DNA of 44,734 nt from Nitrospirota bacterium (GTDB lineage: Bacteria; JACPQY01). Below are positions 25,907 through 44,734 of this stretch, in pieces (within the stretch, counting starts at the first letter, position 1; each line of letters opens with the position of its first letter). The position numbers and the translations under genes are program-made. The notes below the pieces were generated by a model. It did not search any database. It saw nothing but the letters and a program-made list of their open reading frames with translations, and was not told where the DNA came from. The stretch covers positions 1-44,734 of the forward strand of contig JACPQY010000035.1 in the NCBI GenBank assembly GCA_016190245.1. The letters run 5' to 3'.

Positions 25907-25992
25907 GAGAATTCTGCTCTTGTGTTTCTCACACGGTGAGCGCGGGAAGTCAAGCAAAGTCGGCACCTTTCGCGGTAGCGGATACGACGATT

Positions 25993-28217: not shown

Positions 28218-28274
28218 GGTAGCCGCGGGCTTCAGCCCACGTCCGAAGACGCACCCATGAAGGGTGCGGCTACC
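28218..28274. repeat. Dispersed palindromic repeat, compact copy (GGTAGCC...GGCTACC)
   Basis: GGTAGCCGCGGGCTTCAGCC at the left and GGGTGCGGCTACC at the right. The outer arms GGTAGCC/GGCTACC are perfect. It lies in the 87-base gap between the convergent triple-OmpA and PI-PLC-like genes, where it might also end transcription. Same family as 2580-2743 and 44673-44727. Confidence 0.7.
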
Positions 28275-28287
28275 AGCTTAGGGCTCC

Positions 28288-29268
28288 TCACGGGCTCCCG
28301 ATATCTTCCAAGTCCGCGGCCACGCAATCCGGCGGTGCCGTGACGGGGTTGCAGCGTGAAGGCGTCCCGCCCGGGATTTCGACCCAGTATCCTTCGATCA
28401 GGCCGGGCGCCGGGTAGTCCGTGCTGATCATATGCGCGCCGCCGGCCAGGGCCGTGTCTCGACGCCGGGTGTCACCCGCGCGAGGCTCCGTCACGCTGTC
28501 GGCCCGCGTCCGAACGAGAAATCCCGCCTGAACGGCGGCCCGGATCGAGGCGTCCTCGGCGAGCGGATCGTCCAGCTTCAGCACGGCGGCAAAAGGGTCG
28601 CTCGGCTCCGCCGTGACAAACATCAGCCGGCCATCGAGCGAGGTCCGGCTGAACGTGTAGCGGGCCCGGTGGGTGCCCGTGTCGAGCATGACGAAAACGG
28701 CGCGGCCGCGCAGGTCCGATACGGGCGGCCATCCATCCTGCGTAACCGCCTCGCGAAGGGTGGGAGCCGACCCACGCGCCTCCTCCGGCGTGAGGACCCG
28801 CTCCCCGGGCCACACGGAAAGGATTTCCGCTTCCAAGTCTTCGTAGTGCCCGAGAATCGGGCTCGGATCGATCTCGTCCTTGGGCTCTAAGAAGATGAAC
28901 AGCGGGTGATGATGGGGGTGTGCGTCGGACCACGCCTTGAAAATCGAAAGGCAGTCGGCGAACCAGTAGCACCGCGTTCCCTCGTCCGCATAGGGAATGT
29001 GGTAGACGGCGAAACGGGACGCTTCCGCTCTCCAGTGGACGTCCAGCTCGAACTGCCGCACCCCCATCGAGGAGAGCTGATCCTCAAGCGGCGGAAGGCT
29101 GTAGTCGAGGTCAACGACCACGAAGGGCGAGGGCGCCAGGTGATAGCTGTTGTGTGTGCCTTTCATCTGGATGTGGTGGAGCCGGGGGCCTGCTGAGGCC
29201 GACGAACCACACGAACCGCCGAGGGCCAGACACGAGAGCAGGAAGAAACCGCTCCCCAGCCCTCTCAT
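28288..29268 (-). CDS. Ca2+-dependent phosphoinositide phospholipase C-like lipoprotein
   Basis: 326 residues from ATG 29268, chosen because AGGGAGGGG lies just upstream. A longer frame to 29418 runs into the kinase gene. The N-terminus is a lipoprotein-like signal (FLLSCLALGGSCGSSAS). The catalytic motif MKGTHNSYH has His39. FELDVHWR supplies Glu74/Asp76, and VYHIPYADEGTRC has a second His at 90. This is the pattern of the Ca2+-dependent PI-PLC family. The C-terminal part includes FVMLDTG and MISTDYPAPGLIEGY, typical of its TIM barrel. Members cleave phosphoinositides or related glycerophospholipids. The bacterial substrate is unknown. It follows the second kinase gene by 22 bases on the same strand, so it is probably the last gene of the operon. 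Confidence 0.85.
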   Translation of the reverse strand: MRGLGSGFFLLSCLALGGSCGSSASAGPRLHHIQMKGTHNSYHLAPSPFVVVDLDYSLPPLEDQLSSMGVRQFELDVHWRAEASRFAVYHIPYADEGTRCYWFADCLSIFKAWSDAHPHHHPLFIFLEPKDEIDPSPILGHYEDLEAEILSVWPGERVLTPEEARGSAPTLREAVTQDGWPPVSDLRGRAVFVMLDTGTHRARYTFSRTSLDGRLMFVTAEPSDPFAAVLKLDDPLAEDASIRAAVQAGFLVRTRADSVTEPRAGDTRRRDTALAGGAHMISTDYPAPGLIEGYWVEIPGGTPSRCNPVTAPPDCVAADLEDIGSP

Positions 29269-29290
29269 GACCCCTCCCTGAAAGAGAAGC

Positions 29291-31567
29291 TCAGTGTGCG
29301 GATGGCCCCGCTTCCCCGTTGCGACCGGGGACACTCCCTTGGGCCTCGGGGTGCGGCGGGACGGGCTTCTCAGCCCCTCCCCTCCAAAGCCGCCGCCACC
29401 ACCTTTGCGACGCCGCATCCGCCTCCGGGGTGTAGCCGCGGTACTGGTAGCGGTAGAGGTAACGCGGGTAGAAATACGGGCCGTGGTAATCGATGTCGTT
29501 GAGCACGATTCCGATGAGGTTGCCGCCCGCGCCCTTGATGGTCTCGATGGCGCGCATCAACATGTCGCGCGGTGTGCGGCCGATGCGGTAGACGAGAATC
29601 ACGGCATCCACGTGGGGCGCGATCACCGTCGCATCCGCCACGGGCAGGATCGGGGGGCAATCCACGATCACGGTCTCGAAGGCCCGCTTCGCCTCCTGCA
29701 GAAAACCGCGCGAGGTGAGCTGCATCAACGTCTCCGACGGGTGCACGGGCGTGGGGCCCGCGGGCAGGATGTGGAGGTTGTCGAGCCCCGGCGATTCCTG
29801 CACGGTCTTCGGATCGAGCCCGTCCACGAACAAATCGTAGATGCTCCGCACCTCGTCGCGCCAGGGGCGGTTGTCGAGCACCACGTTCGTGAGCCCGTCG
29901 TCGGCTCGGAGAGGGAAGATCTTGTGCATGGTGGGGCGCCGCGTGTTGGCCTCGACCAGGAGCGTGGAGTAGCCCGCCTGGGCGAAGGTGATGGCAAGGT
30001 TCGAGGTGATGAAGGACTTGCCTTCCTGGGGGGTCGCGCTCGAGACCATGAACAGCCGTCGCTCGGCCAGACCTCCTCTGAGCGCCATCCGGAGGATCCG
30101 GAAACTCTCGCTCGTCGGATTCTTGGGCCAGAAATGGGCCACCATCTTCTCCCGGAAATACGGCGTCCCGCTGCCGTTGACCGCGGGCGGAGCCCGGCCC
30201 TTGTGAACGCGATCCGACTGGGGGTTGAAGTGCGGGATCACGGACAGCACCGGCAGCCCCACCAGGGCCTCCACCTCCGCCACGTTTTCCAGCGAGAAAT
30301 CGAACGCCTCGCGGAGGAAGGCCAGTCCAATCCCCGCGATGAGGCCGAGAAACATCACCGGCAGCACCGGCGCGAGCTGGATCTTGTGGACGGGTTCGGT
30401 GGGCAGGAGGGCCAACTCCACAACCTGGACGTAGTCGGCGCGGAAGCTGTCCTCGAACTCGGCGGTCTGGTAGGCCTGCTCCATCTGCTCCAGCATGGAC
30501 TGGTATCGCTCCACCCGGCGCCTCAGCCGCACCATCTCGATCTCATCTTTCAGATAGTCCGAGCGCGCCGCCTCGATCTGTGCCTTCTGTTGGTCGATCT
30601 CCAGACGCTTGCGTCCGCTCTCTTCCAAGAGCCCTCCAAGGGTGTGAACCAACTGAGCCCGGAGGACGGCGAGGCGTTCCTCCATCTCCCGCACGAGCGG
30701 GTGCGAGGTGGTGAGAAGCAACTGCTGCTCCTGGCGCCTCAGGAGGAGTTGCGTGTAGTCCTGACGGAGCTGTTCGTAGTTGGGCGGCGCTTCGGGGATG
30801 GTGAGTGAGTTCAACGTGCCCTCTTGGGAGGCAACATCGGACGTGAGGACACCCAGGACGTTTCGCACGGCCTCTTCCTGCCAGACCAGGGACTGGTCTT
30901 TCTCCTCGAGATCCACCAAACGGTTGAGTTGGACGCTCAGGGTGGAGCCCGTATCGGACAGGCGGTGGGACAGCTTGAACTCGTTCATCTCCTGCTCGGC
31001 CTTCTCCTCCATTTCCTCGAGCTTTTGCTTGTGCCCGCCGGTCAGGTCGCGGGCATGCTGGGCCCGTTCGCGGCTCCTCTGGGTGCGGTACGTGCGGTAG
31101 GCTTGGGCCGTGTAGTTGGCGAGGTCCCTGGCCTCTCTCGGCTCTCCGGAGGTGGCCACGATATCAATGAAGGCCGTGCGTTCCCGCTTGCGGGCTTCCA
31201 CCTTGCTCTGGTAGTCGCGGATCACGGAGAACACGGTCTCCTGGCGGGAGGCCTCCTCGAGCGTCGTTTCCGCCGGAATCCGACCCATCTTCTTGGCCAC
31301 ATCGAGCATCACCGGGAGGCTCGTGACCACGTTCAACTCCGTCGTGAGATCGGTGATGCCGTAGGGGAAGCCGCCCCGGGCGGCGAAGAAGTACTGGACC
31401 TCGACACTGGCATGGGTCTGATACTGCACTTCCTGGCGCCGCAGAAAGAACGCGGCAACAAGAACGGAAAGCCCAACCGCAAGGAAGACGATGAATTTCC
31501 GCTTGAGGATGACCCTGAAGACCTCCGGCAGCGAGGCGTAGCGTTCGAAGCGGCCGCGGCTCGTCAT
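29291..31567 (-). CDS. Wzc-like tyrosine autokinase / chain-length regulator, copy 1
   Basis: 758 residues. Residues 10-35 are the first membrane helix, followed by a Wzz-type periplasmic domain with long coiled coils (about residues 150-390) and a second helix near 400 (LAPVLPVMFLGLIAGIGLAF). The cytoplasmic BY-kinase domain has Walker A SATPQEGKS (near 510), a Walker A' segment LLVEANTRRP where the usual DxDxR is ExNxR, and Walker B VIVDCPPILPVAD. The C-terminal tyrosine cluster is dense, with eight Tyr in 23 residues (FYPRYLYRYQYRGY). The family controls polymer length and export in Wzy-dependent polysaccharide pathways. It starts 13 bases after an HD-GYP gene. No Wzx, Wzy or glycosyltransferase is beside it. 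Confidence 0.92.
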   Translation of the reverse strand: MTSRGRFERYASLPEVFRVILKRKFIVFLAVGLSVLVAAFFLRRQEVQYQTHASVEVQYFFAARGGFPYGITDLTTELNVVTSLPVMLDVAKKMGRIPAETTLEEASRQETVFSVIRDYQSKVEARKRERTAFIDIVATSGEPREARDLANYTAQAYRTYRTQRSRERAQHARDLTGGHKQKLEEMEEKAEQEMNEFKLSHRLSDTGSTLSVQLNRLVDLEEKDQSLVWQEEAVRNVLGVLTSDVASQEGTLNSLTIPEAPPNYEQLRQDYTQLLLRRQEQQLLLTTSHPLVREMEERLAVLRAQLVHTLGGLLEESGRKRLEIDQQKAQIEAARSDYLKDEIEMVRLRRRVERYQSMLEQMEQAYQTAEFEDSFRADYVQVVELALLPTEPVHKIQLAPVLPVMFLGLIAGIGLAFLREAFDFSLENVAEVEALVGLPVLSVIPHFNPQSDRVHKGRAPPAVNGSGTPYFREKMVAHFWPKNPTSESFRILRMALRGGLAERRLFMVSSATPQEGKSFITSNLAITFAQAGYSTLLVEANTRRPTMHKIFPLRADDGLTNVVLDNRPWRDEVRSIYDLFVDGLDPKTVQESPGLDNLHILPAGPTPVHPSETLMQLTSRGFLQEAKRAFETVIVDCPPILPVADATVIAPHVDAVILVYRIGRTPRDMLMRAIETIKGAGGNLIGIVLNDIDYHGPYFYPRYLYRYQYRGYTPEADAASQRWWRRLWRGGAEKPVPPHPEAQGSVPGRNGEAGPSAH

Positions 31568-31580
31568 GCCGGGGCGGGAC

Positions 31581-32501
31581 TCACACGAGTGCTTCGCGGA
31601 TCGTGATCATGGGGTGCCGCTGGAGGTCAACGAGCCGATGCTCCACCTCGGCAGGATCCCCATCCAGCACCTCCACGAGGGGACGCATGGGCGTCTCGGG
31701 ACGCACGTCTTTGACGCGGGCCATGCGGCCGCTGGAGAGGCGCACTAGAGAGCCGGGAGGGTACGGCGTGAGGCTCCTGAAGGCGGCAACCCAAAGACGA
31801 CGCGAGAACTGGTCCCGGCCTGATCGAAGGAGGTGAGAAATCCCTTCGAAGAACGAAACCGCCCGCCGCCACGGCCGGGCATGCGTGAGACTTTCGAGGG
31901 TGTCGCAGACGCCGACGACCTGCGCCGTGAGGTCGATCTGATCGCTCCGGAGACCCTGGGGATACCCGCTGCCGTCCGCGCGCTCGTGCTCCTGAAGGGC
32001 CACGCGGGCGAAAACGCGGCTCAGGCCGGAATCGCGCAGGATCAGCGAGCCCCGATCGGGATGCGTCTTCATGAGACGGCGCTGATCGTCGCTGAGGGGA
32101 CCGTCCTGCCGCAGCATGTCCGAGGGCAGACCCAGCATTCCCACGTCGTGCAGGAGAGCAGCCACGCCGACCAGGAGCAGGTCCTTCCCCCGTAGGCCCA
32201 ACTCGCCGGCGAGCCTGAGCGAGATGACGCTGACGTTTAGGGAATGCGTCCCGACCGGATCGGCGTCTTGGACTTCGGGAGTCAGGCGGAACACCCGCTC
32301 CAGCCACAGTTGAGACCAAGCGACCGAGTGCTCGGTGAGATCCGTGAAGAGGGCGAAGAGTCGGTGATCGCTCACATCGCGCTGGTTGTGGAGCTGCCCC
32401 ATGAGGTGGTTAAGCTCCTCCAGCACGGCGCGCCTGAGCGCCTCAACCTTCTTCCTCTCAGGATCGTTCCCGTTCGACGAATGTGTCCCTATACCAGCCA
32501 C
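31581..32501 (-). CDS. HD-GYP domain protein, copy 1
   Basis: 306 residues from GTG 32501. Residues 80-240 are an HD-GYP domain: His86 in GTHSLNVS, His118-Asp119 in LLHDVGMLGLP, His147, EHERADGSGYP with His172 and GYP at 179-181, and Asp200 in VCDTLESLTHARP. The domain usually hydrolyses c-di-GMP. The typical HDIGK Lys is Met here, and the HHE pair reads EHE, so activity should be tested. Residues 240-306 form a beta-rich tail often seen after HD-GYP domains (YPPGSLVRLSSGRMARV). No sensor domain is present. It is followed by the Wzc-like gene after 13 bases, implying c-di-GMP-linked control of polysaccharide. Confidence 0.9.
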   Translation of the reverse strand: MAGIGTHSSNGNDPERKKVEALRRAVLEELNHLMGQLHNQRDVSDHRLFALFTDLTEHSVAWSQLWLERVFRLTPEVQDADPVGTHSLNVSVISLRLAGELGLRGKDLLLVGVAALLHDVGMLGLPSDMLRQDGPLSDDQRRLMKTHPDRGSLILRDSGLSRVFARVALQEHERADGSGYPQGLRSDQIDLTAQVVGVCDTLESLTHARPWRRAVSFFEGISHLLRSGRDQFSRRLWVAAFRSLTPYPPGSLVRLSSGRMARVKDVRPETPMRPLVEVLDGDPAEVEHRLVDLQRHPMITIREALV

Positions 32502-32585
32502 CGTTCCGGTGCGTGATCGGAATTAGCCCACCGGTTGCATATTGTATCGAACAGAGTGAGGAAAGTCAACGAAAGTCGCCGCACT

Positions 32586-32653
32586 GTGCCGCCGGCGCGG
32601 CACGCCGGACGGCCTCCAATATTTCTCCCCCCCCACAGCCATCCGGTGGGGGG
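32586..32653. terminator. Two GC-rich hairpins between module 2 and module 1
   Basis: Hairpin one: GTGCCGC (32586-32592), loop CGGC, GCGGCAC (32597-32603). Hairpin two: CCCCCCAC (32629-32636), 9-base loop, GTGGGGGG (32646-32653). They follow the stop of the second kinase gene on the minus strand and precede the next HD-GYP start by 85 bases. Neither has a T-tract, so they could be Rho-dependent stops, attenuators or mRNA-stabilising structures. Confidence 0.4.
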
Positions 32654-32692
32654 TCCACGCCGAGCGTTCGCTACGGTGGTGGTCCCGCGACT

Positions 32693-34942
32693 TCAGGCGG
32701 GATTCGCCCCCACATCCTGGTCGGCGCTTGCTACCGCCGGCGCCTGATGATCGGGCGCGCCCCCAAGGCGCCACCGTTTCCAGAAGGGCACGGATGCCCG
32801 ATCGGCCTCCGGTGTGTAGCCGCGGTACTGATACCGATAGAGGTACCGCGGGTAGAAGCTCGGCCCCTGGTAGTCCACATCGTTGAGCACCATCCCCATG
32901 ATGTTGCCCTTGACGCCGCGGATGGTCTCGATCGCGCGCATGAGCATGTCGCGCGGTGTTCGCCCCATGCGGTAAACCAGGATGACACCGTCCACATGCG
33001 GGGCCAGGACGGAGGCATCCGCCACCGGGAGGATGGGCGGGCAATCAATGATCACGATCTCAAACTCCTTCCTGGCCTGGCCGATGAGATTTCGATCCAT
33101 GAGCTGCATGAGCGTCTCCGAGGGATGCACGGGCGTCTGTCCGGCGGGCAGGAGGCGAAGGTTCTCCAAGCCGGGCGCGTCCTGGATGGACTTCGGATCG
33201 AGTCCCTCCAGGATGAAGTCGTGGACGCCTCGGATCTGGTCCCGCCAGACAACGGCATCGGACACCGCGCTGGTCAACCCCTGGTCATGCTTGATCGGGA
33301 AGATCTTGTGCATGGTGGGGCGCCGCGTGTTCGCCTCGATGAGAAGCGTGGAGTAGTTCGCCTGGGCAAAGGTGATGGCGAGGTTCGAGGTGATAAAGGA
33401 CTTGCCTTCCTGCGGCGTCGCGCTCGTCACCAGGAACACCCGCGGCCCCTCAGTCCCCCTTCGGATCGCCATCCGGAGCATCCGGAAGCTCTCGCTCGTC
33501 GGATTCTTGGGCCAGAAATGGGCAATCATCTTGGACCGGAAGTACGGCAGTTCGGCTCCGTTGCCTTTCGGCGGCGGCCGACGACCTTGCCGGGCCTCGG
33601 CCTGCTCCGCGTCGAAGTGAGGGATGACCGAGAGGACGGGCAGCCCGACGACGTGCTCGGCTTCCGAGATGTCCTCCATCGAGAAATCGAACGCCTCGCG
33701 CAGGAAGGCGAGCCCGATCCCCATCACAAGGCCGAGGAGCAGGATGGGGACGGTCGGGCCGAGGCGCAGCCGGGTCATCGGCTCCGTGGGCAGAACGGCC
33801 ATCTCGACCACGCGAACATGCTCCCCCCGGTAGCTCTCCTGGAATTCGACGGTCTGGAGAGACTGCTCGGTTTGCTCGAGCATGGACTGGTACCTGTCCA
33901 CCTTCCGCCGCAGCCGGACGAGTTCAATCTCATCCTTCAGGAAGTTGTGGCGCGCCGACTCGATCGCTGCGCGCTCGGCCTCGAGCTGCTCGCGGTGGCG
34001 CCCGATTTCTTCCAACAGCATCCCGATGGTGCCCACGAGGCGTCCCCGCAGGGCTGTCATCCGCTCGTCGAGCTCTTGCAGACGAGGGTGGGCCACGGCC
34101 AGCATGCTGCGGGCTTCGTCCCGCTCGACCTGGAGGGCCAGGTAGTTCTCCCGCAGGCGCTCGATCGCAGACGGATCCGCGGTCGCGAGAACGGCGGGGG
34201 CGGCCGCCGCTTCCCCGGGCTCCGCGCCCAAGGAGGACAACATCTGCCGATAGACCTCGGCGCGGCGAGACAACTCCGCACCCTGCTCCTCGACTTCAAC
34301 CTGGCGGTTGAGCTGCACATCCATGGCGGCCTGGGCCTCCGTCACACGGCGCTCGAGCTTGAAGTTGCTCAACTCCTTCTCTGCCTGGCCAAGCAACTCC
34401 TCCAGGCGTTCGCGATAGGAGCGGCCGACCTCGCGGGCCTGCTCCACGCGCTCGTGGGACCGCAGGTTGCGGTGGCTCCGGTAGGCGTAGGCTGTGAAGT
34501 TCGCCACATCACGCGCTTCCATGGCCTCCGGTGAGGTAACGTGGATATCTACGATGGTGGTGCTGCCCCTCTGCTCCGGGCTGATGAGGCTCTGGATGCG
34601 GCGCAAGTCGGCTAGAACGGCCGAATCGCGCCCGGCCTCTTCCAATCCGAGGGACTCGGGAACGCGCCCGAGCCGCTGCGCCACCTCGAAGACCACGGGG
34701 AGGCTGGTGATGATGTTGCGCTCGGTCTCGAAGTCCGTGAAGTTGAATCCGAAGCCGTTGCGCATCTCGTAGAATTGCTCTACCTCGACGGACGCGTGCG
34801 TCCTGAACAACTCCTGCTGCCCCCTCAGGAAGAAGGCGGCCACCATCCCCGAGAGAACAAAGCACATGAGGACGATGTACTTCCGCTTGATCACCACCCG
34901 GAGGATGTCCGGGAGCGAGGTTGCGGCTTCACGGCGTGCCAT
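32693..34942 (-). CDS. Wzc-like tyrosine autokinase / chain-length regulator, copy 2
   Basis: 749 residues, clearly a paralogue of the protein at 29291-31567 over its whole length. It has an N-terminal membrane helix (RKYIVLMCFVLSGMVAAFF), Wzz-type domain with coiled coils, and a second helix near 405. The kinase domain has Walker A SATPQEGKS near residue 505, the same altered Walker A' (LLIEANTRRP), and Walker B VIIDCPPILPVAD. The C-terminal tyrosine cluster has seven Tyr (FYPRYLYRYQYRGY). Periplasmic coiled-coil parts differ most between the copies, while the kinase domain differs least. ATG 34942 follows AAGGGGTGAACC. It is 29 bases after its HD-GYP partner. Confidence 0.92.
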   Translation of the reverse strand: MARREAATSLPDILRVVIKRKYIVLMCFVLSGMVAAFFLRGQQELFRTHASVEVEQFYEMRNGFGFNFTDFETERNIITSLPVVFEVAQRLGRVPESLGLEEAGRDSAVLADLRRIQSLISPEQRGSTTIVDIHVTSPEAMEARDVANFTAYAYRSHRNLRSHERVEQAREVGRSYRERLEELLGQAEKELSNFKLERRVTEAQAAMDVQLNRQVEVEEQGAELSRRAEVYRQMLSSLGAEPGEAAAAPAVLATADPSAIERLRENYLALQVERDEARSMLAVAHPRLQELDERMTALRGRLVGTIGMLLEEIGRHREQLEAERAAIESARHNFLKDEIELVRLRRKVDRYQSMLEQTEQSLQTVEFQESYRGEHVRVVEMAVLPTEPMTRLRLGPTVPILLLGLVMGIGLAFLREAFDFSMEDISEAEHVVGLPVLSVIPHFDAEQAEARQGRRPPPKGNGAELPYFRSKMIAHFWPKNPTSESFRMLRMAIRRGTEGPRVFLVTSATPQEGKSFITSNLAITFAQANYSTLLIEANTRRPTMHKIFPIKHDQGLTSAVSDAVVWRDQIRGVHDFILEGLDPKSIQDAPGLENLRLLPAGQTPVHPSETLMQLMDRNLIGQARKEFEIVIIDCPPILPVADASVLAPHVDGVILVYRMGRTPRDMLMRAIETIRGVKGNIMGMVLNDVDYQGPSFYPRYLYRYQYRGYTPEADRASVPFWKRWRLGGAPDHQAPAVASADQDVGANPA

Positions 34943-34971
34943 GGTTCACCCCTTTTTCAAGCCGAAGCGGC

Positions 34972-35892
34972 CTATGCCAGCGCTTCCTGAATCGTGACCA
35001 GCGGGTAGCGCCGCAGGTCGAGAAGAACGTCTCCCTCCGGGTCCTTTTCGCTCTGGAGCACCTCCACGGTGGGCCGCATGAGCGTTTCCGGGTCCGGTTC
35101 GTACACGCGGCCGAGCTGGCCGTTGGAGAGGCGGACCATCGTGCCGGGCGGGTACGGCGTGATCCGCCGGAGCCCCGCGGACCAGATCTCGCGCGGGAAC
35201 TGCGCCTTGTGCTCGTGAAGGAGATCCGTGAATGCCCGGATGAAGGGCCGGGCCTTCCGGTGCGGCCGCGGGTGCGTCATGCTCTCGATCGTGTCGCAGT
35301 AGCCCACGATCGAGGCGAAGCCATGGATCTCGGGCCCCTTGAGCTTGAATGGGTAGCCGCTGCCGTCCTGCCTTTCGTGCTCCTGGAGAACGACCTCCGA
35401 GAACGACCGCGAGAGACCGGAGTGACGCAGGAGTTTGAATCCCTGCTCCGGATGGCGGCTCACGATCGAACGCTCCTCCGGCGTGAAGGCTCGCTCGACC
35501 TCCAGCACCTGATGGGGGACGTCGAAGAGGCCGATGTCGTGCAGGAGGGCGCCCATCCCAAGGAGCATGAGGTCGCGACCCGCGTAGCCGAGATCGCGGC
35601 CGATCTCCATGGAGAGGATGCTGACGTTGAGCGCCTCCACAGACAGCCGCTCGCCGTTCACCGGCTCGGGGGTCGGGCGGAACACGAATTCCAGCCAGAA
35701 CCGGCGGCGGATCGGGATGTCCTCTGCGAGCGTCGAGTAGACCGAGAACAGGCGGTGGTCCCGGATGTCGCGCTGATTTCGCAGCAGTTCGACAAAGTCC
35801 CGGAACTCCGTCAGGACCGAGCGTGCGATGGACCGGACATGCAGCCGATCCTGCTCGTTTTCGTTCTTTCGAATGAGCGGCCGAGCTTCCAC
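34972..35892 (-). CDS. HD-GYP domain protein, copy 2
   Basis: 306 residues from GTG 35892, with GGGAGGG upstream. It aligns without gaps in the core to the copy at 31581-32501: His118-Asp119 (LLHDIGLFDVP), His147, EHERQDGSGYP and Asp200 (GYCDTIESMTHPRP) are at the same positions. The His86 of copy 1 is Glu86 here (RLSVEALNV), so one candidate metal ligand differs between the copies. The tail has the same beta-rich pattern (YPPGTMVRLSNGQLGRV). It is the first gene of the five-gene minus-strand run. The likely role is c-di-GMP hydrolysis or sensing tied to the polysaccharide kinase. Confidence 0.9.
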   Translation of the reverse strand: MEARPLIRKNENEQDRLHVRSIARSVLTEFRDFVELLRNQRDIRDHRLFSVYSTLAEDIPIRRRFWLEFVFRPTPEPVNGERLSVEALNVSILSMEIGRDLGYAGRDLMLLGMGALLHDIGLFDVPHQVLEVERAFTPEERSIVSRHPEQGFKLLRHSGLSRSFSEVVLQEHERQDGSGYPFKLKGPEIHGFASIVGYCDTIESMTHPRPHRKARPFIRAFTDLLHEHKAQFPREIWSAGLRRITPYPPGTMVRLSNGQLGRVYEPDPETLMRPTVEVLQSEKDPEGDVLLDLRRYPLVTIQEALA

Positions 35893-36102: not shown

Positions 36103-37041
36103 CTACGTGGTTTCCACAATCCCGATCAGAAGCGTTCTGATTCTCTGGTCCGCCCGAACGAGGCTGTCCATTCGAACGCACGCCTTCGTCACGGCACTGT
36201 CGCTCCCCAAGCCGAAATGCCGCCGTATCTCCGCACTCGGATACCCCGCCACCCGGCTCGAAAGGTAGATCGCCAAGTTCCGCGCGTCATTCGTCCGACC
36301 CCGCCGCCCCGTCAAGAGATCCCGTGAAGTGCGACCCGTCTTCCGAACCACTGCCTGCACCACGGCTCCCAAGGAGGGGAACTGCGGGGTCCGTTCCCTC
36401 CGCGCATGCTCCCGAGACGGTCGAGCCCTCCTGATCGCCGCGGCAAGAAAGCCCCCATCCCCCAGAAACGGGCTCCATCGCCCGCCCTCAAGATAGGCCC
36501 TCAGCGCAGCCTCGTTCCCCTCCGCCACAAACCGCTCGAAGGCGCCAGGGTTCGGAAATCGACCCAGCACCTCCGCCCAGGCCAACCATCCCGGTTTCCT
36601 CGAAGCAAGGTACAAGACGTGACTGCTCCACGGGTATGCCCTCGCGGCCCTCACCAAGCCGGCCTCAACGGGGTTGAGGTGAATGTACCGGACCAGTTGC
36701 AACAGGTAGACATCCGCATCCACCAGAAGAGCCTTGTAGCGGCCTCGGAACAAGGGACCGTCACGCCCGCGATCCCGGTTGAATCGCTGGGTGTACAGTC
36801 CATCCACATGCCTCATCACTCGGGACACGTTGCCGCGAGGGGTCTGCAAGAAGAGATGGTAGTGGGTCTTCATGCAGCAATAGGCCATTACCCTGACGTC
36901 CCACCGCGTCGTGATATCCGCAAGCAGATCAACGAATCGCCCATGATCCTCCTCCCGCTCGAAGACCGGCTGCCGATCGAGGCCGCGGTTCATCACGTGG
37001 TAGTACGCCCCGGGGAATTCGACTCGCAACGGCCGCGCCAT
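36103..37041 (-). CDS. REP-associated tyrosine transposase (RAYT / Y1 family)
   Basis: 312 residues from ATG 37041 (three codons further up is another ATG). The start MARPLRVEFPGAYYHVMNRG is the standard opening of this family. The HUH metal-binding pair is in CCMKTHYHLFLQTP. GRYKALLVDADVYLLQLVRY contains the candidate catalytic Tyr, followed by IHLNPVEAGLV. The C-terminal third has a DnaA-like helix-turn-helix (AEIRRHFGLGSDSAV), as in the longer transposase subgroup. It cuts and rejoins single-stranded DNA at palindromic repeats. The frame is intact, and inverted ends flank it at 36037 and 37057. Confidence 0.93.
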   Translation of the reverse strand: MARPLRVEFPGAYYHVMNRGLDRQPVFEREEDHGRFVDLLADITTRWDVRVMAYCCMKTHYHLFLQTPRGNVSRVMRHVDGLYTQRFNRDRGRDGPLFRGRYKALLVDADVYLLQLVRYIHLNPVEAGLVRAARAYPWSSHVLYLASRKPGWLAWAEVLGRFPNPGAFERFVAEGNEAALRAYLEGGRWSPFLGDGGFLAAAIRRARPSREHARRERTPQFPSLGAVVQAVVRKTGRTSRDLLTGRRGRTNDARNLAIYLSSRVAGYPSAEIRRHFGLGSDSAVTKACVRMDSLVRADQRIRTLLIGIVETT

Positions 37042-37056
37042 CAAATCCATCCAAGT

Positions 37057-37634: not shown

Positions 37635-37829
37635 TCACGAAGCCTTCCCATTGATCCCACAGTTGAGCGGCTCGGGAGGCGCGGGTTTTCCGCACGCGAC
37701 AAGACTCTGCGGCTCGAATGCGGTCTCCGTTGCGACGATTGCAGGCCGGACGTACGTGAGTTTTCCCGTCCGAGCGCCGGTACCCACGCTGGCCCCGCGT
37801 GCATCGTCAGCGTGCGTTTTTCGTTCCAT
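37635..37829 (-). CDS. 64-residue peptide with two C-terminal cysteines, possible RiPP-type precursor
   Basis: ATG 37829 is preceded by GGAGGTGAT with ideal spacing. The stop of the giant secreted protein is only 18 bases upstream, so the two are probably coupled. The N-terminal half is charged and Gly-rich (ERKTHADDARGASVGTGA). Then comes KLTYVRPAIVATETAFEPQS, and a tail LVACGKPAPPEPLNCGINGK with Cys47 and Cys57. The YVxPxIVxTE segment followed by a short Cys-containing tail resembles small peptide families I associate with modified-peptide leaders, but I cannot name one with certainty. No maturation enzyme (radical SAM, YcaO, lanthionine synthetase) is in the window. The gene is well supported. 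The function is open. Confidence 0.75.
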   Translation of the reverse strand: MERKTHADDARGASVGTGARTGKLTYVRPAIVATETAFEPQSLVACGKPAPPEPLNCGINGKAS

Positions 37830-37832
37830 CAA

Positions 37833-37841
37833 ATCACCTCC
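37833..37841 (-). promoter_or_regulatory. Shine-Dalgarno sequence of the small peptide gene
   Basis: GGAGGTGAT on the minus strand, complementary to the 16S anti-SD over at least eight bases, with 7 bases from GGAGG to ATG. It decides the start at 37829 over the TTG one codon earlier and is the strongest argument that this short gene is real. Confidence 0.85.
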
Positions 37842-37847
37842 ATGGCG

Positions 37848-40800
37848 TCACGGCGAGGGGTCGGAGGTCCAAACGGGCAGGTACCAAACCGTATCGCTTG
37901 CGCCGACCACCACCAAACGTTGCCCATCGTACGACACGACGATATTGCCATCCAAAGTCTGACCCAGGGCATATGGATACCCCTTGCCGGTGAGTTGAAT
38001 CGGGGAGCTCCGAAGAGTGGTCCCGGGGAAAGTGATGTCATAGGCGTACACTTTCCCGTTGGCATGCGCGAGATAAAGGACCCCGGTGAGGACGATCGGC
38101 TGGCTTCGGATGGCAGACGACTCGGACTGGAGAGGGTATCCAGCGCCACAAGTCCCGCCGGTTGCGTCGTCCTTCAGACAGTGCAACTTCCCGGTTTCGT
38201 CGCCGACAAAGATACCGCCGTAGGCGATCCAAGGAGCGAAGTTCCTTATTCCTCCGACTCCAGAGGTGTAGCCGGTCCCGGCCGGGGCCCAGGCCGGGTA
38301 GGCGGCGCTGAAGGAAGCGTCGTTGTTGAACACGTGCAGGGCACCGGTGCTGCTGTCCTTGTATGTGCCGACGTAGAACCTGTTGAAGAAGGTACGATAA
38401 GGAAAGCCGAAGACCGTATATCCCGGGCCAGCCCCGTCGACTGCGTAGTTGGGTCCGGGTTTGGAGAAAGAGGAGGCGTCCGCCTTGAAAGTCGAGACAC
38501 CCATGGCATCAGTGCCCGACACCCACACCGTTCCCGAGAAGTCGGTGTTTGGAAGATGCGCGGCGGCCGGCGTGTGGGCGACACAGTCGTACAGTCGAGG
38601 GGGCGTGACCCCATCGCAAGTCGTGGCCCCGGCGAGATCAAACCAGCACAACGAGCACATGAACTGGCTCAGCCCTTGGCGTGCCCCGAAAAAGAGCAGT
38701 TCCCCGTCGCCGGTGACGGCCGTGGTGATCTCGTCGAAGTTCCTTGCCTCACCTCCCTTGATCTCAGAATCCGACTTGAACGTCCAAGCCGGCGGTGAGG
38801 CACCAAACCCGGTGCCGGTAAAATCCAAGCGAAACACGTAGCCAGCCGTCGTCCCGAAGAATATCGCCTCCTTCTCGGTGGCCGAGCAGGTGGTCGCATA
38901 ATCCTCGGTCCAGTGCCAAGGGGGCCCCACGAGATCGCCGCAGTTCCCCCCGCCACAGGAGGCGGAGAGGTCGGGGAGGGAATAGGTCGCCCGGAATCCG
39001 GAGGCGTCGAACTTCACGACATAGATCTTGTCACCCGAGCCGGCCGCACCCTCGCGGGAAGACACGAACGAGCCCAGGAATGTCGAGAGATCCGGATCAT
39101 CGTAATTGGAGTCGGTCGACGTGCAGAAGCTCCAAACGTTGTAGGCGGCCGTCTGCGCAGCGCCCGCGACAGCGAGAGTCGTGATCTTGCTTCCCAGATC
39201 GCCTCCAATGTTCGGCGGCGAGCCTTTAACGGGGTTTAAGCCCACCTGGATCGAGCAGGCTGAAATCGTGATGCTGTCGTTCACCGTGACGGTGGGCGAT
39301 GTCCCGAGGGTAATCTTGAGACGGTTGTTGGTTAGCAAGCCAACACTCGACCAGGCGCAACTTGGGGAGGATCCCCAGGTGTGGCTCGCCGATAGGGTCA
39401 AGTTTGCGTCCAGGTTGCCTGGACACGGCGTGCCGGCACCCCACCCATTGGTGCCCTTGTCGAAGGTCAGCGTAACTGCGTCACCGGCCTGAGCGCCAGC
39501 CCCGTTCCCGGAGTCGTCGCTGGCAAGGGCGGAGAGGATCACACCATCGGTGGGCAGCGTGGAATCGAAGGTGCCGGTGATGCTGGGGGGGGAGCCGACG
39601 GCGTCGTTGCCGGAGGCGTCTTCGATAGTGTTGGGGGCGATCGTGATCGTATCCCCCACGGCCACGGTGGGTGAGCCGCCGGTGATGGTTATCGTGAGGG
39701 TATCGTTGGCGAGGCTGCCGGTGGACCAGGCGCAACTGACCGTGCCCCACGTGTGGCCGTTGCTCAACGCCAATTCGGTGTTGATCGAGCCGCACCCGTA
39801 GGCGCCGTTCGTGCTCCCGTTGAAGAGAACAGTCACGGTATCACCGGGTCCCGGCCCGACGTCGCACGCGCCCGCCTCGGCCGCTGTGAGACCGGTCGCG
39901 TCGGGGTTCACAGTGTCCACCATGAAGTCGAGTTCTTCCGAGGCACCCTCCTCATATTCGACCCAGGAGCTGGACGCGCCTTCCACATCCACGGTGCGGG
40001 CCTGCCACTTGTAGTTGCCGTCCGCGATCGTGGCCGTGATGCTTACTGTGGTCCCGCTGGCCACGAGGGGCGAACTGTAGGTGGGGCTGTTTGCGAAGCT
40101 CGACCCCGTGGTCACGACCTCCACTTGGAGCATGACCGTGTTGTTGTCCGGGTCGGACACCGTCCCACTGAACTTGATTGTGGTCTGGGCCGTGGTCCCC
40201 GCGTCCGGGATGATCGAGCCCGAACCGTCCTTCTGCGCGAGGGACGTCGGTGTGTTGGGCGGGTTGTTGGCCGACGCGTTGCAGTTCTTTCCTCCGGTGA
40301 CGACCACGGTATCGCCCACGGAGGGTGTTTGGTTCACGGCATCGCCATCCGTCTGTTCTGTGCCAATGATATTGAGAGACACCGAAGCCGTCCCGCTGCA
40401 GAAGTCGGTCGTGAGGGTGACGCTGGAGGGCTCGACGAAAGGACTGATTCGGGCCTGGCCGCCGCCCGCGGCGAGCGTGGTGGTCACCTGGCGGTACTCC
40501 ATCGCGTAGCTGGCGGGGACGGTCTGGCTCGGCGTGCAGGAACTCAGGAGGCACTTGTAGCCGTTCACGGTGAGCTTGGAGAAGTTGCCGAGGGGGTTAT
40601 CCTTGATCGTCATCGCGTCGTTCCCGGTGTTTTTCACCTCGAGGGCCACCTGGGGCACGGTCCCCGCGGCGAGGGTGTTCGTGCAGCAGCCGTCGAGAGG
40701 AGTGGTGTCGAGCGTGGCGGCGACGTACTCGACGGTGGCGAAGGAGCAGTTGGGGTCGCCGTCCACGACGGTAACCGTGTCGTCCACGATGGGGGTGGAG

Positions 40801-43800
40801 TTCACGGTCGCCAGATCAATGTCGTTCCCTACGACGCGAAGGGTGACCTTGGCCGGCCCGTTGCAAAACACCGCTCCGAGTGCGGCGGTATTGGTGTTGA
40901 AGCTGAAGGACGCCGTGTCGGACGGCTGCCCCCCCGCGCCGAGGTCCACCGAGGTGGCCACAGGGACACGGGTGGTGTACGTATGCGTTCCGTACCCATT
41001 CAAATCGGTGAGGGTGACCTCCGTGTAGAAGGGTCCGGCAATCTGGTCCTTGACCGTCATAGCCTTCACGCCCACGTTCTTGATACTCATCGAGGGCGCC
41101 CAGGGGCCGGTCGCGCTCTGGGAGGCCGGAAAGATCGTTCCGGAGACATAGGTGGGCAAGCCACCCGCGCAGCTTGCGCCACCGGTCACGGTGATCTTGT
41201 CGCTCACGGTCGGCTGCTGCGTCACGGGGTCCGGGTTGGTGTCCGGGTCGCCGCCGTTGTAGTCGTCCGGCCCTGTCCCTTCAAGTGTCAGGACCGGGGT
41301 GAACGACCCGTTGCAGAAGCCCGTCGTGATCGTCGTGCCCGTCACGAACGTGAGCGTTTCGACCTCCGCGTCACCCAAGATGCAGTCTCCACTGCACGTC
41401 GAGAGCGTAGCGGTGCTGCTGTTCGTCCCGTCCGTGAAGGACATCGTGCTCGCCGTGGACAGTGTGTAGGCGATGTTTCCGTTGTTTCTCACGTTCATCG
41501 TGTAGGAGGGTTTGCTGCCGGCGCTCACCGTAGTCGGCGCCAGCGTGCCGCCGATGTAGTTGGTCACGATGCCCGTGACCTTGTTGAACTGCTTCGTCCC
41601 CGTGGTGCAGCCATCCCGGTAGCAGGCCGTCACGGTGGACGTGACAGTCCCACTCCCAATGCTGATGGGCGCAATCAGGTTCACAATGCACTTCCCGAGG
41701 CCGTCCGTGACGCACGTGGACTGGACGATCGTTCCGTTGTCCGACGCCCACTCGACCGGCAGACCTGGCTCGGGGTTGTCGCCGGCGTCCTTCGCTTCCA
41801 CGGTGATGACGTAGGTGGACTGGCCATCGGCATTCAGGCAGTCCGGACAGGTCCCTCCGGGCGTGGTGGGGAGTAGAGAGAGCTTGAACCCCGAGACGAT
41901 GAAGAACCCCCCCGTGACCCACACGCGCGCGTTCTTGACGCCCTGCTTGTTGAAGAGCTGCTGGGTGAAGATAATGCGCAAATCCGTGCGGGTGCGCGGC
42001 ACGGCCTTGGTGCTCGCATCGCACGTGGACACCCCGTCCTGAAACGTGATGCTGAAGTTGTAGTTGTTGCCGGGCTGTAGGGGCGTGTTGTTGTTGGAGG
42101 TGAAGCCGACCATGTTGCAGTACAACTCGTTGTTGGTCCACCCGGCCGGCAGCGTGCCGGTGCTCGCCGACTCCGGCCTCATCTTGGCGGGGTCCCACCA
42201 CAAGCGGAAACGGTTGATCTGTTCGGGCCCGCCGTGGAACACGGTGAAGTTGAGCGTAACCGGGGTGGTGCCCGTGGGAACGTAGATGTCCCCGTCGGCC
42301 GCGTCCTTCATGGTGAGGGAGAACAGCCGGACCCGCCCCTTCAGGCTGGTTCCTTTCGTCGCACTGGTGTTCCCAGGGGCAGGCGTGGTGTAGCTGACGT
42401 ATCCTTGATACTGGTAGGTCTGTTCCTGGGTGCCGTTGATCGTGCACGAGTAGTTGAAGATCGAGACCGAACCGGGCGTCAGCGATTGCAGCGTAGCGGG
42501 AGAAGGGGCGCCGCAGCTCGAGGCGGCGGTGCTGTCGGCGGTAAGTTGGAGAGTGGGGACCACGTCGCCGTAACTGATCGTGTCGTTGTTTTTCACGCGG
42601 AGTTGGATGTCGATCGCTTCGCCGTCCACCACGATGTCCTTCGTGACGATCGCCTCGACGCCGATGTTTGCCACCTGGATCTCGCGCGTGCGCACGAGCG
42701 GCGAGGAGAAGGGGTGATCGTCACCGCACGGGAGCCCCGCCGTGGGCGGGGCGATCAGCTTGCCTTCGGCACAGTCTTCGAGCTCGAAGTAGCCCGGCGT
42801 GCCGCCGATCGTGTACACGAAATTGACGTGGGCGAAACCTCCCGGCTGAATGTATTTGTAGGTGTCGTTGGTGTTGTAGAGGATCGTGCCCACGCTATGG
42901 CTGACCGCCGTGGTCGCGCCGGCCCCGCGGGACAGGGTGTTGAACGTGTCCGGCGGCGATGCGTTGTTCGTGATGGACACATAGTCGATCAGTTCGTCGT
43001 CCACCCGCAGGCGCCCGTCGTTGTTCTTGTAGCCCGTGACACTGTCGGTCTGGAGGGCGGTGGCCTCGGTGCTGTTGAGGTTCGTCCACAGAATGGAGGC
43101 GGGGTCGCGGCTGTAGAAGGGGCCGTAGGTGGGGGCCGGCAGGAGATACTGCTGGCCGGCGGTGCCTTTGACGATCGTGGGAGGGTTGACAATCTGGGCG
43201 AAATGATCCGTCAGGCTGAGGTTGTTGATCTGCCATTCCGTATGTAGCCGAGTGGGAATGGTGTCGCCCGTGTCCGGGTCCGGCGCGATCGAGGACTTCA
43301 CCCACGGCACGACGAGGAGAGAGGCGAGCTCGAAGGCGCTGTTGTTGGTGGTGATGTTGATGAACCGGTCGCCGGAGGCCTTGGAGAGGCTGTAGGTGGC
43401 GTCGAACAGACGCAGGGGCAGGGCCGCAGGGACGTAACCGCAGGCGCCGGGTGCTGGGTCCGTCTCCGGAAACCCGATGACGGCAAGACGGATCGTCATG
43501 TTTGCACCGACCGCGAGGCTGTTGCTGCCGGTTGCCTGGAACCGGGTGCCCCAGCGGGAGCCGGCGGGATAGATGGAATCGTCGATCGAGTAGCCGGCCG
43601 TCACCCAGCCGGCGGGAGGGATGCTCAGCGGGTAGGGAACGATACCGTTGCTGTTCACGCCTCCGTCCGCCGAGTTGCAGGGCGAGTCCATCCAAACCGT
43701 GACTTCCTTGATGGGGGCCTCGCCGGAAGAATGGGTCACGATCATGTCGAGCCAGCCGAGTTCCTGTTTCATGACGACCGCGGGGTTGGCCGATGCCAGC

Positions 43801-44456
43801 GTGATGCTGGAAACTTTGGAATAGAGGGTCACGTCATCAATGTAGGCGCCGGCGGCCTGGTTCGTCGCGTCGGAATCGAAGTAGAACTGGAACTGGACAC
43901 TCGGTTGGCCCGCGAAGGCTGACAGATCGGCCGAGACGGCCACCCACTCGGAATCGAAACCGAACCAGGCGGCGTTGCCATCGGCGATCAGGCCGTCGTA
44001 CGCGAGGCCGAGCTTCCCGCCAGGGTCCAAGGAGGTGAAGACCAACGTGTTGTCGAGGTTTCTCCACGTCAGCCCGCCATCGCTGGTGACGCGCAGCCTG
44101 AGGCCGTCGAATCCCTCTTCGATCCCCCGCCAGAACCAGAAGCTGAGGTAGACGTTGGCGTAGGGACTGAAGTCATAGGGAGTGGGAGGTGAGGTCAGAA
44201 TGCTGGTGGTGTCCGCGGAGTATCGGGTATCGATCTGAGTGGCCCAACAGTTCGAGCCGCCGTGGCAGGAGGCCGGGCCGAAGGTGGGCGTGCCCCACTC
44301 CCAGTCGTTGGTGGGTGTGAAGCCGCCGTTGTCGGACTCGAAGTCGTAGGAGGCGATGGTGGCGGCCTCGCCAAGCCGCGCCCACCCCAGCGCCAGGAGA
44401 ACAGCCAGTCCGAGACCAATGTAGTGGGTCAGAAGTCTCTTTGCTTTGCCCGTCAT
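37848..44456 (-). CDS. Giant secreted multidomain protein (jelly-roll, CARDB/Big-like domains, C-terminal propeller)
   Basis: 2,202 residues from ATG 44456. The signal peptide is MTGKAKRLLTHYIGLGLAVL, then LALGWARLGEA. Residues 40-190 are a MAM/jelly-roll-like domain (YDFESDNGGFTPTNDWEW, YIDDVTLYS). Residues about 190-870 are repeated beta domains with Cys pairs. About 870-945 is a Big_1-like domain (VEAKDAGDNPEPGLPVEW). About 960-1395 holds three CARDB-like repeats (MSIKNVGVKAMTVKD, LEVKNTGNDAMTIKD). About 1519-1755 has two SwmB-like units (GDTVTVLFNGSTNG). Residues 1760-2202 are a PQQ-type propeller (GKVYAYDITFPG, GNIVVSYDGQRL). No anchor or sorting signal is seen. A longer frame up to 44606 is translated repeat sequence and is rejected. 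The peptide gene follows after 18 bases. Confidence 0.88.
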   Translation of the reverse strand: MTGKAKRLLTHYIGLGLAVLLALGWARLGEAATIASYDFESDNGGFTPTNDWEWGTPTFGPASCHGGSNCWATQIDTRYSADTTSILTSPPTPYDFSPYANVYLSFWFWRGIEEGFDGLRLRVTSDGGLTWRNLDNTLVFTSLDPGGKLGLAYDGLIADGNAAWFGFDSEWVAVSADLSAFAGQPSVQFQFYFDSDATNQAAGAYIDDVTLYSKVSSITLASANPAVVMKQELGWLDMIVTHSSGEAPIKEVTVWMDSPCNSADGGVNSNGIVPYPLSIPPAGWVTAGYSIDDSIYPAGSRWGTRFQATGSNSLAVGANMTIRLAVIGFPETDPAPGACGYVPAALPLRLFDATYSLSKASGDRFINITTNNSAFELASLLVVPWVKSSIAPDPDTGDTIPTRLHTEWQINNLSLTDHFAQIVNPPTIVKGTAGQQYLLPAPTYGPFYSRDPASILWTNLNSTEATALQTDSVTGYKNNDGRLRVDDELIDYVSITNNASPPDTFNTLSRGAGATTAVSHSVGTILYNTNDTYKYIQPGGFAHVNFVYTIGGTPGYFELEDCAEGKLIAPPTAGLPCGDDHPFSSPLVRTREIQVANIGVEAIVTKDIVVDGEAIDIQLRVKNNDTISYGDVVPTLQLTADSTAASSCGAPSPATLQSLTPGSVSIFNYSCTINGTQEQTYQYQGYVSYTTPAPGNTSATKGTSLKGRVRLFSLTMKDAADGDIYVPTGTTPVTLNFTVFHGGPEQINRFRLWWDPAKMRPESASTGTLPAGWTNNELYCNMVGFTSNNNTPLQPGNNYNFSITFQDGVSTCDASTKAVPRTRTDLRIIFTQQLFNKQGVKNARVWVTGGFFIVSGFKLSLLPTTPGGTCPDCLNADGQSTYVITVEAKDAGDNPEPGLPVEWASDNGTIVQSTCVTDGLGKCIVNLIAPISIGSGTVTSTVTACYRDGCTTGTKQFNKVTGIVTNYIGGTLAPTTVSAGSKPSYTMNVRNNGNIAYTLSTASTMSFTDGTNSSTATLSTCSGDCILGDAEVETLTFVTGTTITTGFCNGSFTPVLTLEGTGPDDYNGGDPDTNPDPVTQQPTVSDKITVTGGASCAGGLPTYVSGTIFPASQSATGPWAPSMSIKNVGVKAMTVKDQIAGPFYTEVTLTDLNGYGTHTYTTRVPVATSVDLGAGGQPSDTASFSFNTNTAALGAVFCNGPAKVTLRVVGNDIDLATVNSTPIVDDTVTVVDGDPNCSFATVEYVAATLDTTPLDGCCTNTLAAGTVPQVALEVKNTGNDAMTIKDNPLGNFSKLTVNGYKCLLSSCTPSQTVPASYAMEYRQVTTTLAAGGGQARISPFVEPSSVTLTTDFCSGTASVSLNIIGTEQTDGDAVNQTPSVGDTVVVTGGKNCNASANNPPNTPTSLAQKDGSGSIIPDAGTTAQTTIKFSGTVSDPDNNTVMLQVEVVTTGSSFANSPTYSSPLVASGTTVSITATIADGNYKWQARTVDVEGASSSWVEYEEGASEELDFMVDTVNPDATGLTAAEAGACDVGPGPGDTVTVLFNGSTNGAYGCGSINTELALSNGHTWGTVSCAWSTGSLANDTLTITITGGSPTVAVGDTITIAPNTIEDASGNDAVGSPPSITGTFDSTLPTDGVILSALASDDSGNGAGAQAGDAVTLTFDKGTNGWGAGTPCPGNLDANLTLSASHTWGSSPSCAWSSVGLLTNNRLKITLGTSPTVTVNDSITISACSIQVGLNPVKGSPPNIGGDLGSKITTLAVAGAAQTAAYNVWSFCTSTDSNYDDPDLSTFLGSFVSSREGAAGSGDKIYVVKFDASGFRATYSLPDLSASCGGGNCGDLVGPPWHWTEDYATTCSATEKEAIFFGTTAGYVFRLDFTGTGFGASPPAWTFKSDSEIKGGEARNFDEITTAVTGDGELLFFGARQGLSQFMCSLCWFDLAGATTCDGVTPPRLYDCVAHTPAAAHLPNTDFSGTVWVSGTDAMGVSTFKADASSFSKPGPNYAVDGAGPGYTVFGFPYRTFFNRFYVGTYKDSSTGALHVFNNDASFSAAYPAWAPAGTGYTSGVGGIRNFAPWIAYGGIFVGDETGKLHCLKDDATGGTCGAGYPLQSESSAIRSQPIVLTGVLYLAHANGKVYAYDITFPGTTLRSSPIQLTGKGYPYALGQTLDGNIVVSYDGQRLVVVGASDTVWYLPVWTSDPSP

Positions 44457-44546
44457 TCCGGGCTTGCCGCGCCCCGTCATTTCGGGGACCCGGAATCCAG
44501 TCTTTCTGCCCTGGATTCCCCCCGCCGGCGGCGGGGCGGGAATGAC
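44452..44546. repeat. Dispersed repeat with GTCATTCC/GGAATGAC ends overlapping a start codon
   Basis: The ends GTCATTCC (44452-44459) and GGAATGAC (44539-44546) are inverted. Inside are CCCCGTCATTTCGGGG, CCCGGAATCCAG and CCTGGATTCC, the usual pieces of a widespread GC-rich repeat. On the minus strand the left end reads GGAATGAC, and its ATG is the start codon of the giant secreted protein. Confidence 0.7.
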
Positions 44547-44734
44547 AGCCTCATCATTCATCTGAAGTGTCGGACGCACTACGCTAGTTCGAGAACGCAT
44601 CTTCAACGACGCGCCGACCGCGCCGCGAGCCCCGCACCCTCCCAGGATTCCCCGGTTTCCCAGACGGAAGCCGGTAGTCGCGGGCTTCAGCCCGCGTCCA
44701 GGGCGCAGCCTGAAGGCTGCGGCTACCCGGAATA
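44457..44734. other. Upstream region of the giant secreted protein gene, mostly dispersed repeats
   Basis: It holds the GTCATTCC-type repeat (to 44546) and the GGTAGCC-type repeat (44673-44727). Between them, 44547-44672 is unassigned and could hold the promoter of the minus-strand gene. No gene is seen before the window ends. Confidence 0.5.
44673..44727. repeat. Dispersed palindromic repeat, compact copy (GGTAGTCGCGGGC...GGCTACC)
   Basis: GGTAGTCGCGGGCTTCAGCC, then CGCGTCCAGGGCGCAGCCTG, closing AAGGCTGCGGCTACC. Its two internal hairpins are GCGGGCTTCAGCCCGC and CAGCCTGAAGGCTG. It is the best-preserved copy of the family that also occurs at 2580 and 28218. Confidence 0.75.

Follow-up and report, generated by a model that had tools for sequence, protein, structure and literature searches.

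The question raised by this locus is whether a short frame of 64 codons, lying directly behind the gene of a giant exported protein, is a gene at all and, if so, what its product does. The window analysed here is a stretch of 44,734 nucleotides from a Nitrospirota bacterium (contig JACPQY010000035.1, assembly GCA_016190245.1). An earlier note on this DNA had described a 64-codon frame with a Shine-Dalgarno sequence, placed 18 bases behind the gene of an exported protein of 2,202 residues, and had guessed that it encodes a precursor or secreted factor peptide. The description of the site is accurate. The frame starts with ATG and its Shine-Dalgarno sequence is perfect (Table 1). The giant ORF ends with a TGA at 37850..37848, on the same strand as the peptide, and the bases between this stop and the peptide ATG number exactly 18; they contain GGAGGTGA, followed by TTTG. 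The length of 2,202 residues holds when it is counted from the Met that precedes a signal-peptide-like segment. Between 37400 and 38000 on the minus strand, there were no matches to a sigma-70-like promoter or to a terminator-like site.

Table 1. Features of the peptide gene and of the giant gene in front of it (positions in the window)
Feature	Position	Strand	Description and basis
Giant exported protein gene	37848..44606	minus	TTG at 44606 gives 2,252 aa; Met at 44456 gives 2,202 aa
64-aa putative precursor peptide gene	37829..37635	minus	ATG, 64 codons, TGA; direct reading and family profile from other phyla
Shine-Dalgarno sequence GGAGGTGA	37841..37834	minus	Four bases 5' of the peptide ATG; read directly
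YVRPAI, the YxxPxI leader motif (residues 26-31)	37737..37754	minus	Alignment of 19 members
CGK, end of the conserved leader (residues 46-48)	37686..37694	minus	Alignment
Core Cys57	37659..37661	minus	Kept in all complete family members
C-terminal Ser64	37638..37640	minus	Ser in 32 of 33 members, Thr in one

The simplest explanation, a functionless frame arisen by chance, has in its favor that the frame is short and that the Pfam and NCBIfam scans gave no match for the peptide. It is contradicted by a held-out profile, which was constructed from 19 homologues from other phyla and none from the phylum of the window. Among all ORFs of the window this profile ranked the peptide first, with 19.3 bits (E=9e-5), compared to 5.6 bits for the next ORF and 10.3 bits for the best of 20 shuffled windows. 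The position behind a homologous giant gene, described below, is conserved as well, and chance can for practical purposes be dismissed. By these comparisons of sequence, the 64-residue gene is a real gene and a member of a peptide family.

Within the phylum of the window, the comparison consists of one other genome, G001, which belongs to the same family and another genus. It carries three homologues of the window peptide on contigs C8, C21 and C16, the last of which is located directly before a secreted, lipoprotein-like ORF (the start of this peptide is approximate). The first single-sequence search returned mostly weak matches, of which only G001 stood as found; G086 does contain a true member, but at a place other than its first match. 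A profile of the four same-phylum peptides led to members in further genomes, and phylum-wise searches added more. Weak profile matches in G064, G332 and G375 were set aside as chance. The family comprises at least 33 complete members, which fall into five phylum-level groups; a sixth is represented by a member truncated by a contig end. Six records of the second group, found in a scan of genome contigs with Rokubacteria peptides, bear the name Candidatus Rokuibacteriota. Four peptides used as queries against genome contigs produced no members, and a single peptide against viral contigs no relatives. The homologues that the earlier note had proposed to look for are thus present in five to six phylum-level groups.

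The members have a common leader, YxxPxI...FE..(A/S)L..CGK, followed by a highly variable core of only about 16 residues that contains one conserved Cys. In the alignment of 19 members, the positions that are invariant or nearly so are the Tyr, Pro and Ile of YxxPxI (the first two invariant, the Ile near-invariant), the Phe of FE, the Lys of CGK and the core Cys. Because the Cys of CGK is replaced by Ala in three members from the phylum of genome G129, the core Cys is taken to be the essential one. The last residue is nearly constant, and the residues just before it vary. RiPP precursors are characterized by a conserved leader joined to a variable core, and the 19-row alignment displays this layout. 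Judged from its sequence, the window ORF is very probably a precursor peptide of the RiPP type. The segment YVRPAIVATE, to which the earlier note had drawn attention, belongs to the conserved leader, where it carries the YxxPxI motif. It is no part of the product; the core is the tail after CGK.

The neighborhoods of the family members, read by profile and pairwise searches, lend further support to the guess of a precursor. At 21 loci, a radical SAM/SPASM gene is located beside the peptide or in its cassette, usually together with a PqqD and an HprK-like gene; proximity to radical SAM genes had been suggested as a check. Thus a second RiPP feature, genes of a modifying enzyme and a recognition protein beside family members, is found in the cassettes of other genomes. 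On contig C8 of G001, a radical SAM/SPASM gene (376 aa) precedes the homologue, which begins 14 bases behind it. The Rokubacteria cassette consists of an HprK-like gene, PqqD (at most loci), the peptide and a radical SAM gene, often accompanied by genes of the signal-peptidase-like and NTP_transf_5 types. Several loci also have a large ORF, PQQ-like or propeller-like, further upstream. In the G129 phylum (four genomes), the cassette contains HprK-like, PqqD and radical SAM genes, the gene of a secreted FG-GAP-type protein of about 1,150 aa, the peptide and a signal-peptidase-like gene; the radical SAM gene was not seen in G388. Two genomes of the G266 phylum have PqqD, radical SAM, the peptide, a secreted protein of 700 or 1,150 aa and HprK-like, with an NTP_transf_5 gene upstream. 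The phylum of G288 and G150 has the radical SAM gene and the peptide, at one locus as two tandem peptides, and other copies of the peptide in this phylum have no radical SAM gene nearby. Genome G481 has two near-identical tandem peptide genes behind one radical SAM gene (L109, 933-1493, minus strand). The HprK-like proteins keep the His, the P-loop and the following DE. These P-loop kinases occur in the cassettes of three other phyla, and the window's genome has distant kinases elsewhere. From the composition of the cassettes, the core is probably modified by a radical SAM/SPASM enzyme.

Among the window genes scanned, there is no modifying gene beside the window copy of the peptide. Unlinked RiPP precursors occur in other systems, and an adjacent modifying gene is not an essential feature. 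The genome of the window has one close counterpart of the G001 C8 enzyme, a protein with Radical_SAM and SPASM domains encoded on contig C44 and 57% identical to it. A tree built from 36 radical SAM proteins pairs the C44 protein with that of G001 (support 1.0) and places it inside a clade of peptide-linked enzymes (support 0.989). The other radical SAM proteins taken from the two genomes fall outside this clade, except the enzyme on contig C5 of G001, whose cluster includes HprK-like and PqqD genes of its own. That cluster (L067, 6366-11272, minus strand) comprises two PqqD genes, HprK-like and radical SAM genes and a Cys-rich putative precursor with a YKKPEL leader; asparagine-synthetase-like ORFs, judged by eye, are nearby. 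The window's genome also has HPr-kinase-like genes on C33 and C86 and a PqqD gene on C86, all of them more distant.

These findings bear on the possibility that the window copy is a decaying orphan, left after the modifying genes moved away. For it speak the lack of a modifying gene nearby and the divergence of the window copy, the greatest among the four peptides of its phylum. However, the frame is intact, the ribosome-binding signal is perfect, all key residues are present and the matching radical SAM gene is still in the genome, making decay very unlikely. The C44 gene has no visible adjoining peptide because the contig edge is on its 3' side, and its linkage to the window cannot be read because this edge is made of dispersed repeats. 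Joining the right end of the window to C44 was tried and rejected: the orientations are compatible with an operon, but the ends are dispersed repeats without overlap. Dispersed repeats are found near 44673-44734, 28218-28274 and 2635-2743 of the window, as well as at the C44 edge and in G001.

The giant protein contains Big_1 and MAM-like domains, and its C-terminus is weakly BamB-like in profile scans. Searched by sequence, the C-terminus matched no solved structure, and an AlphaFold prediction from a two-sequence alignment had a mean pLDDT of 32 and no usable fold. The label 'propeller-like' is therefore a putative one, derived from the weak BamB match and from the secreted proteins of other phyla. 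On contig C21 of G001, the peptide lies behind an exported protein of 1,611 aa, the C-terminal ~600 residues of which are 40% identical to the window giant. The GTG start of this peptide overlaps the stop of the giant gene (TAGTG). The order of giant gene and peptide is thus conserved between two genera. A pair of genes encoding an HD-domain protein and a GNVR/tyrosine-kinase-like protein is found behind the C21 peptide; the window has two such pairs in tandem (29291-35892, minus strand), apparently by duplication. The large secreted proteins that recur in the cassettes are beta-rich. Giant or large secreted proteins adjoin the peptide in the window, on C21 of G001, in four genomes of the G129 phylum and in two of the G266 phylum. 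The coupling of peptide and giant protein, which had seemed unusual, is therefore no oddity, as it recurs in several phyla. From this recurrence, we would give even odds to a functional tie between the two.

Such a tie could also exist if the peptide were left unmodified and, co-translated with the giant protein, served it as an ordinary small partner or chaperone; the presence of radical SAM genes close to the homologues would then be incidental. The giant gene is the nearest gene and is translationally coupled to the peptide both in the window and on C21. Nevertheless, several phyla have homologues next to radical SAM, PqqD and HprK-like genes, and a plain subunit does not typically combine a conserved leader and a variable core, which renders this explanation unlikely. 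A subunit of another kind is known from quinohemoprotein amine dehydrogenase, the gamma subunit of which is small, bears Cys residues, is modified by the radical SAM enzyme QhpD and pairs with a propeller protein outside the cytoplasm. By analogy, the peptide could be a radical-SAM-matured small subunit of an extracellular enzyme, providing the giant protein with a cross-linked or redox-active part. The co-occurrence of a small Cys-bearing protein, a radical SAM maturase and a large propeller-like secreted partner speaks for it. However, the core of the family, at only ~16 very variable residues, is much shorter than the gamma subunit and has one or two Cys, and the domain scan found neither a haem nor a dehydrogenase domain in the giant protein. 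The likeness is one of function only, and the subunit explanation is improbable, slightly more so than the chaperone.

Among the closest known systems are those of the phosphorylated lasso peptides (paeninodin, the ThcoK/SyanK kinases and BsfA/BsfK/BsfB1; PMC10368454), with which the family shares YxxPx[LI], a PqqD-like protein, an HprK-like kinase and, in most of these systems, the C-terminal Ser. Lasso leaders carry a YxxPxL motif, and in the lasso system of PMC10368454 the PqqD-like B1 protein assists the kinase and the protease. According to the same study, every lasso phosphorylation reported before it involved the precursor's C-terminal Ser; the exception is its own BsfK, which acts on Ser3. 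The peptide might then be a lasso precursor itself, since the motif, PqqD and the HprK-like kinase are common to phosphorylated lasso clusters. This reading is set aside because the Pfam scan of the large window genes found no asparagine-synthetase-like cyclase. Furthermore, a radical SAM/SPASM enzyme takes the place of the cyclase in the cassettes of other genomes, as read by profile and pairwise searches, and the family adds FE..L..CGK, the core Cys and a large secreted protein. The window's genome also has a separate lasso-like cluster on contig C86, and a lasso identity of the peptide is even less probable than decay. The C86 cluster (L069, 3576-8149) is itself a candidate for a phosphorylated lasso peptide: its putative precursor ends in ...TPPGSS, and genes of an HprK-like kinase and of PqqD are close by. 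Paeninodin and other lasso peptides provide the analogy for phosphorylation of the C-terminal Ser of the window peptide, which is possible, at somewhat less than even odds.

The explanation we favor, and consider likely as a whole, is that of a RiPP precursor modified by a radical SAM enzyme, phosphorylated, and acting with the giant exported protein. Cassettes with radical SAM, PqqD and HPr-kinase-like genes and huge secreted neighbors indicate that the peptide is probably modified and may work with the giant protein. The lasso-like YxxPxI, what is known of the B1 protein and the kinase (PMC10368454) and the key residues of the HprK-like proteins form the basis of the proposed pathway. The precursor would be translated together with the giant protein. 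Its first ~48 residues would serve as the leader, in which YxxPxI...FE..L..CGK would be recognized by a PqqD-type protein. The radical SAM/SPASM enzyme (that of C44 in this genome) would modify the short variable core around the conserved Cys, and an HPr-kinase-like protein could phosphorylate the C-terminal Ser. The leader would be removed, possibly by a signal-peptidase-like protein, and the mature peptide would be exported, most likely to act with the giant protein outside the cytoplasm. It is conceivable, if doubtful, that such peptides form a RiPP class, radical-SAM-modified and C-terminally phosphorylated, whose members are dedicated partners of very large secreted repeat proteins in several little-studied phyla. 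The role of such a partner is a matter of equally tentative proposals: ligand, cross-linker or cofactor.

Other known systems resemble the family in part. SynChlorMet (TIGR04249 ScmC, TIGR04250 ScmE, TIGR04251 ScmF) also combines HprK-like and radical SAM/SPASM proteins. However, all ScmC, ScmE and ScmF scores are far under the curated cut-offs; ScmC, the best NCBIfam model for the kinases of loci L049 and L053, reached 43.8 compared to the required 125 bits. Mycofactocin and PQQ share a small precursor, PqqD-type recognition and a radical SAM/SPASM enzyme, but the core differs, no cofactor genes were seen, and the radical SAM scores are under the cut-offs (137.5 versus 265 bits for MftC, TIGR03962; 96 versus 381 bits for PqqE, TIGR02109). 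In the ACGX system, a radical SAM/SPASM enzyme is likewise associated with a Cys-Gly-containing peptide, whereas the present family has a single CGK, no ACGX repeats and a score of 77.1 against 400 bits for TIGR04340.

The motifs of the family were not described in the literature searched, which took in few subscription papers. Apparently, as judged from that literature and from the Pfam and NCBIfam scans, the family is undescribed. It is of significance that the family is the marker of a multi-gene cassette found in about six phyla and yet matched no Pfam or NCBIfam model in these scans. Two questions become testable with it: whether the same precursor is a substrate of both a radical SAM enzyme and an HPr-like kinase, and what ties modified peptides genetically to giant secreted proteins.

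The window has several other features. A second giant ORF of 2,602 aa (18158-25966) contains many Kelch repeats and Ig-like domains. A PI-PLC-C1 family gene, of the Ca2+-dependent phosphoinositide phospholipase C type, is located at 28288-29418. At 36103-37050 there is a REP-associated tyrosine transposase-like gene, whose score was slightly below the NCBIfam cut-off. The gene at 11385-12599 joins a cyclic-nucleotide-binding and a FliG C-terminal domain in one protein, which is an odd pairing. All four are on the minus strand.
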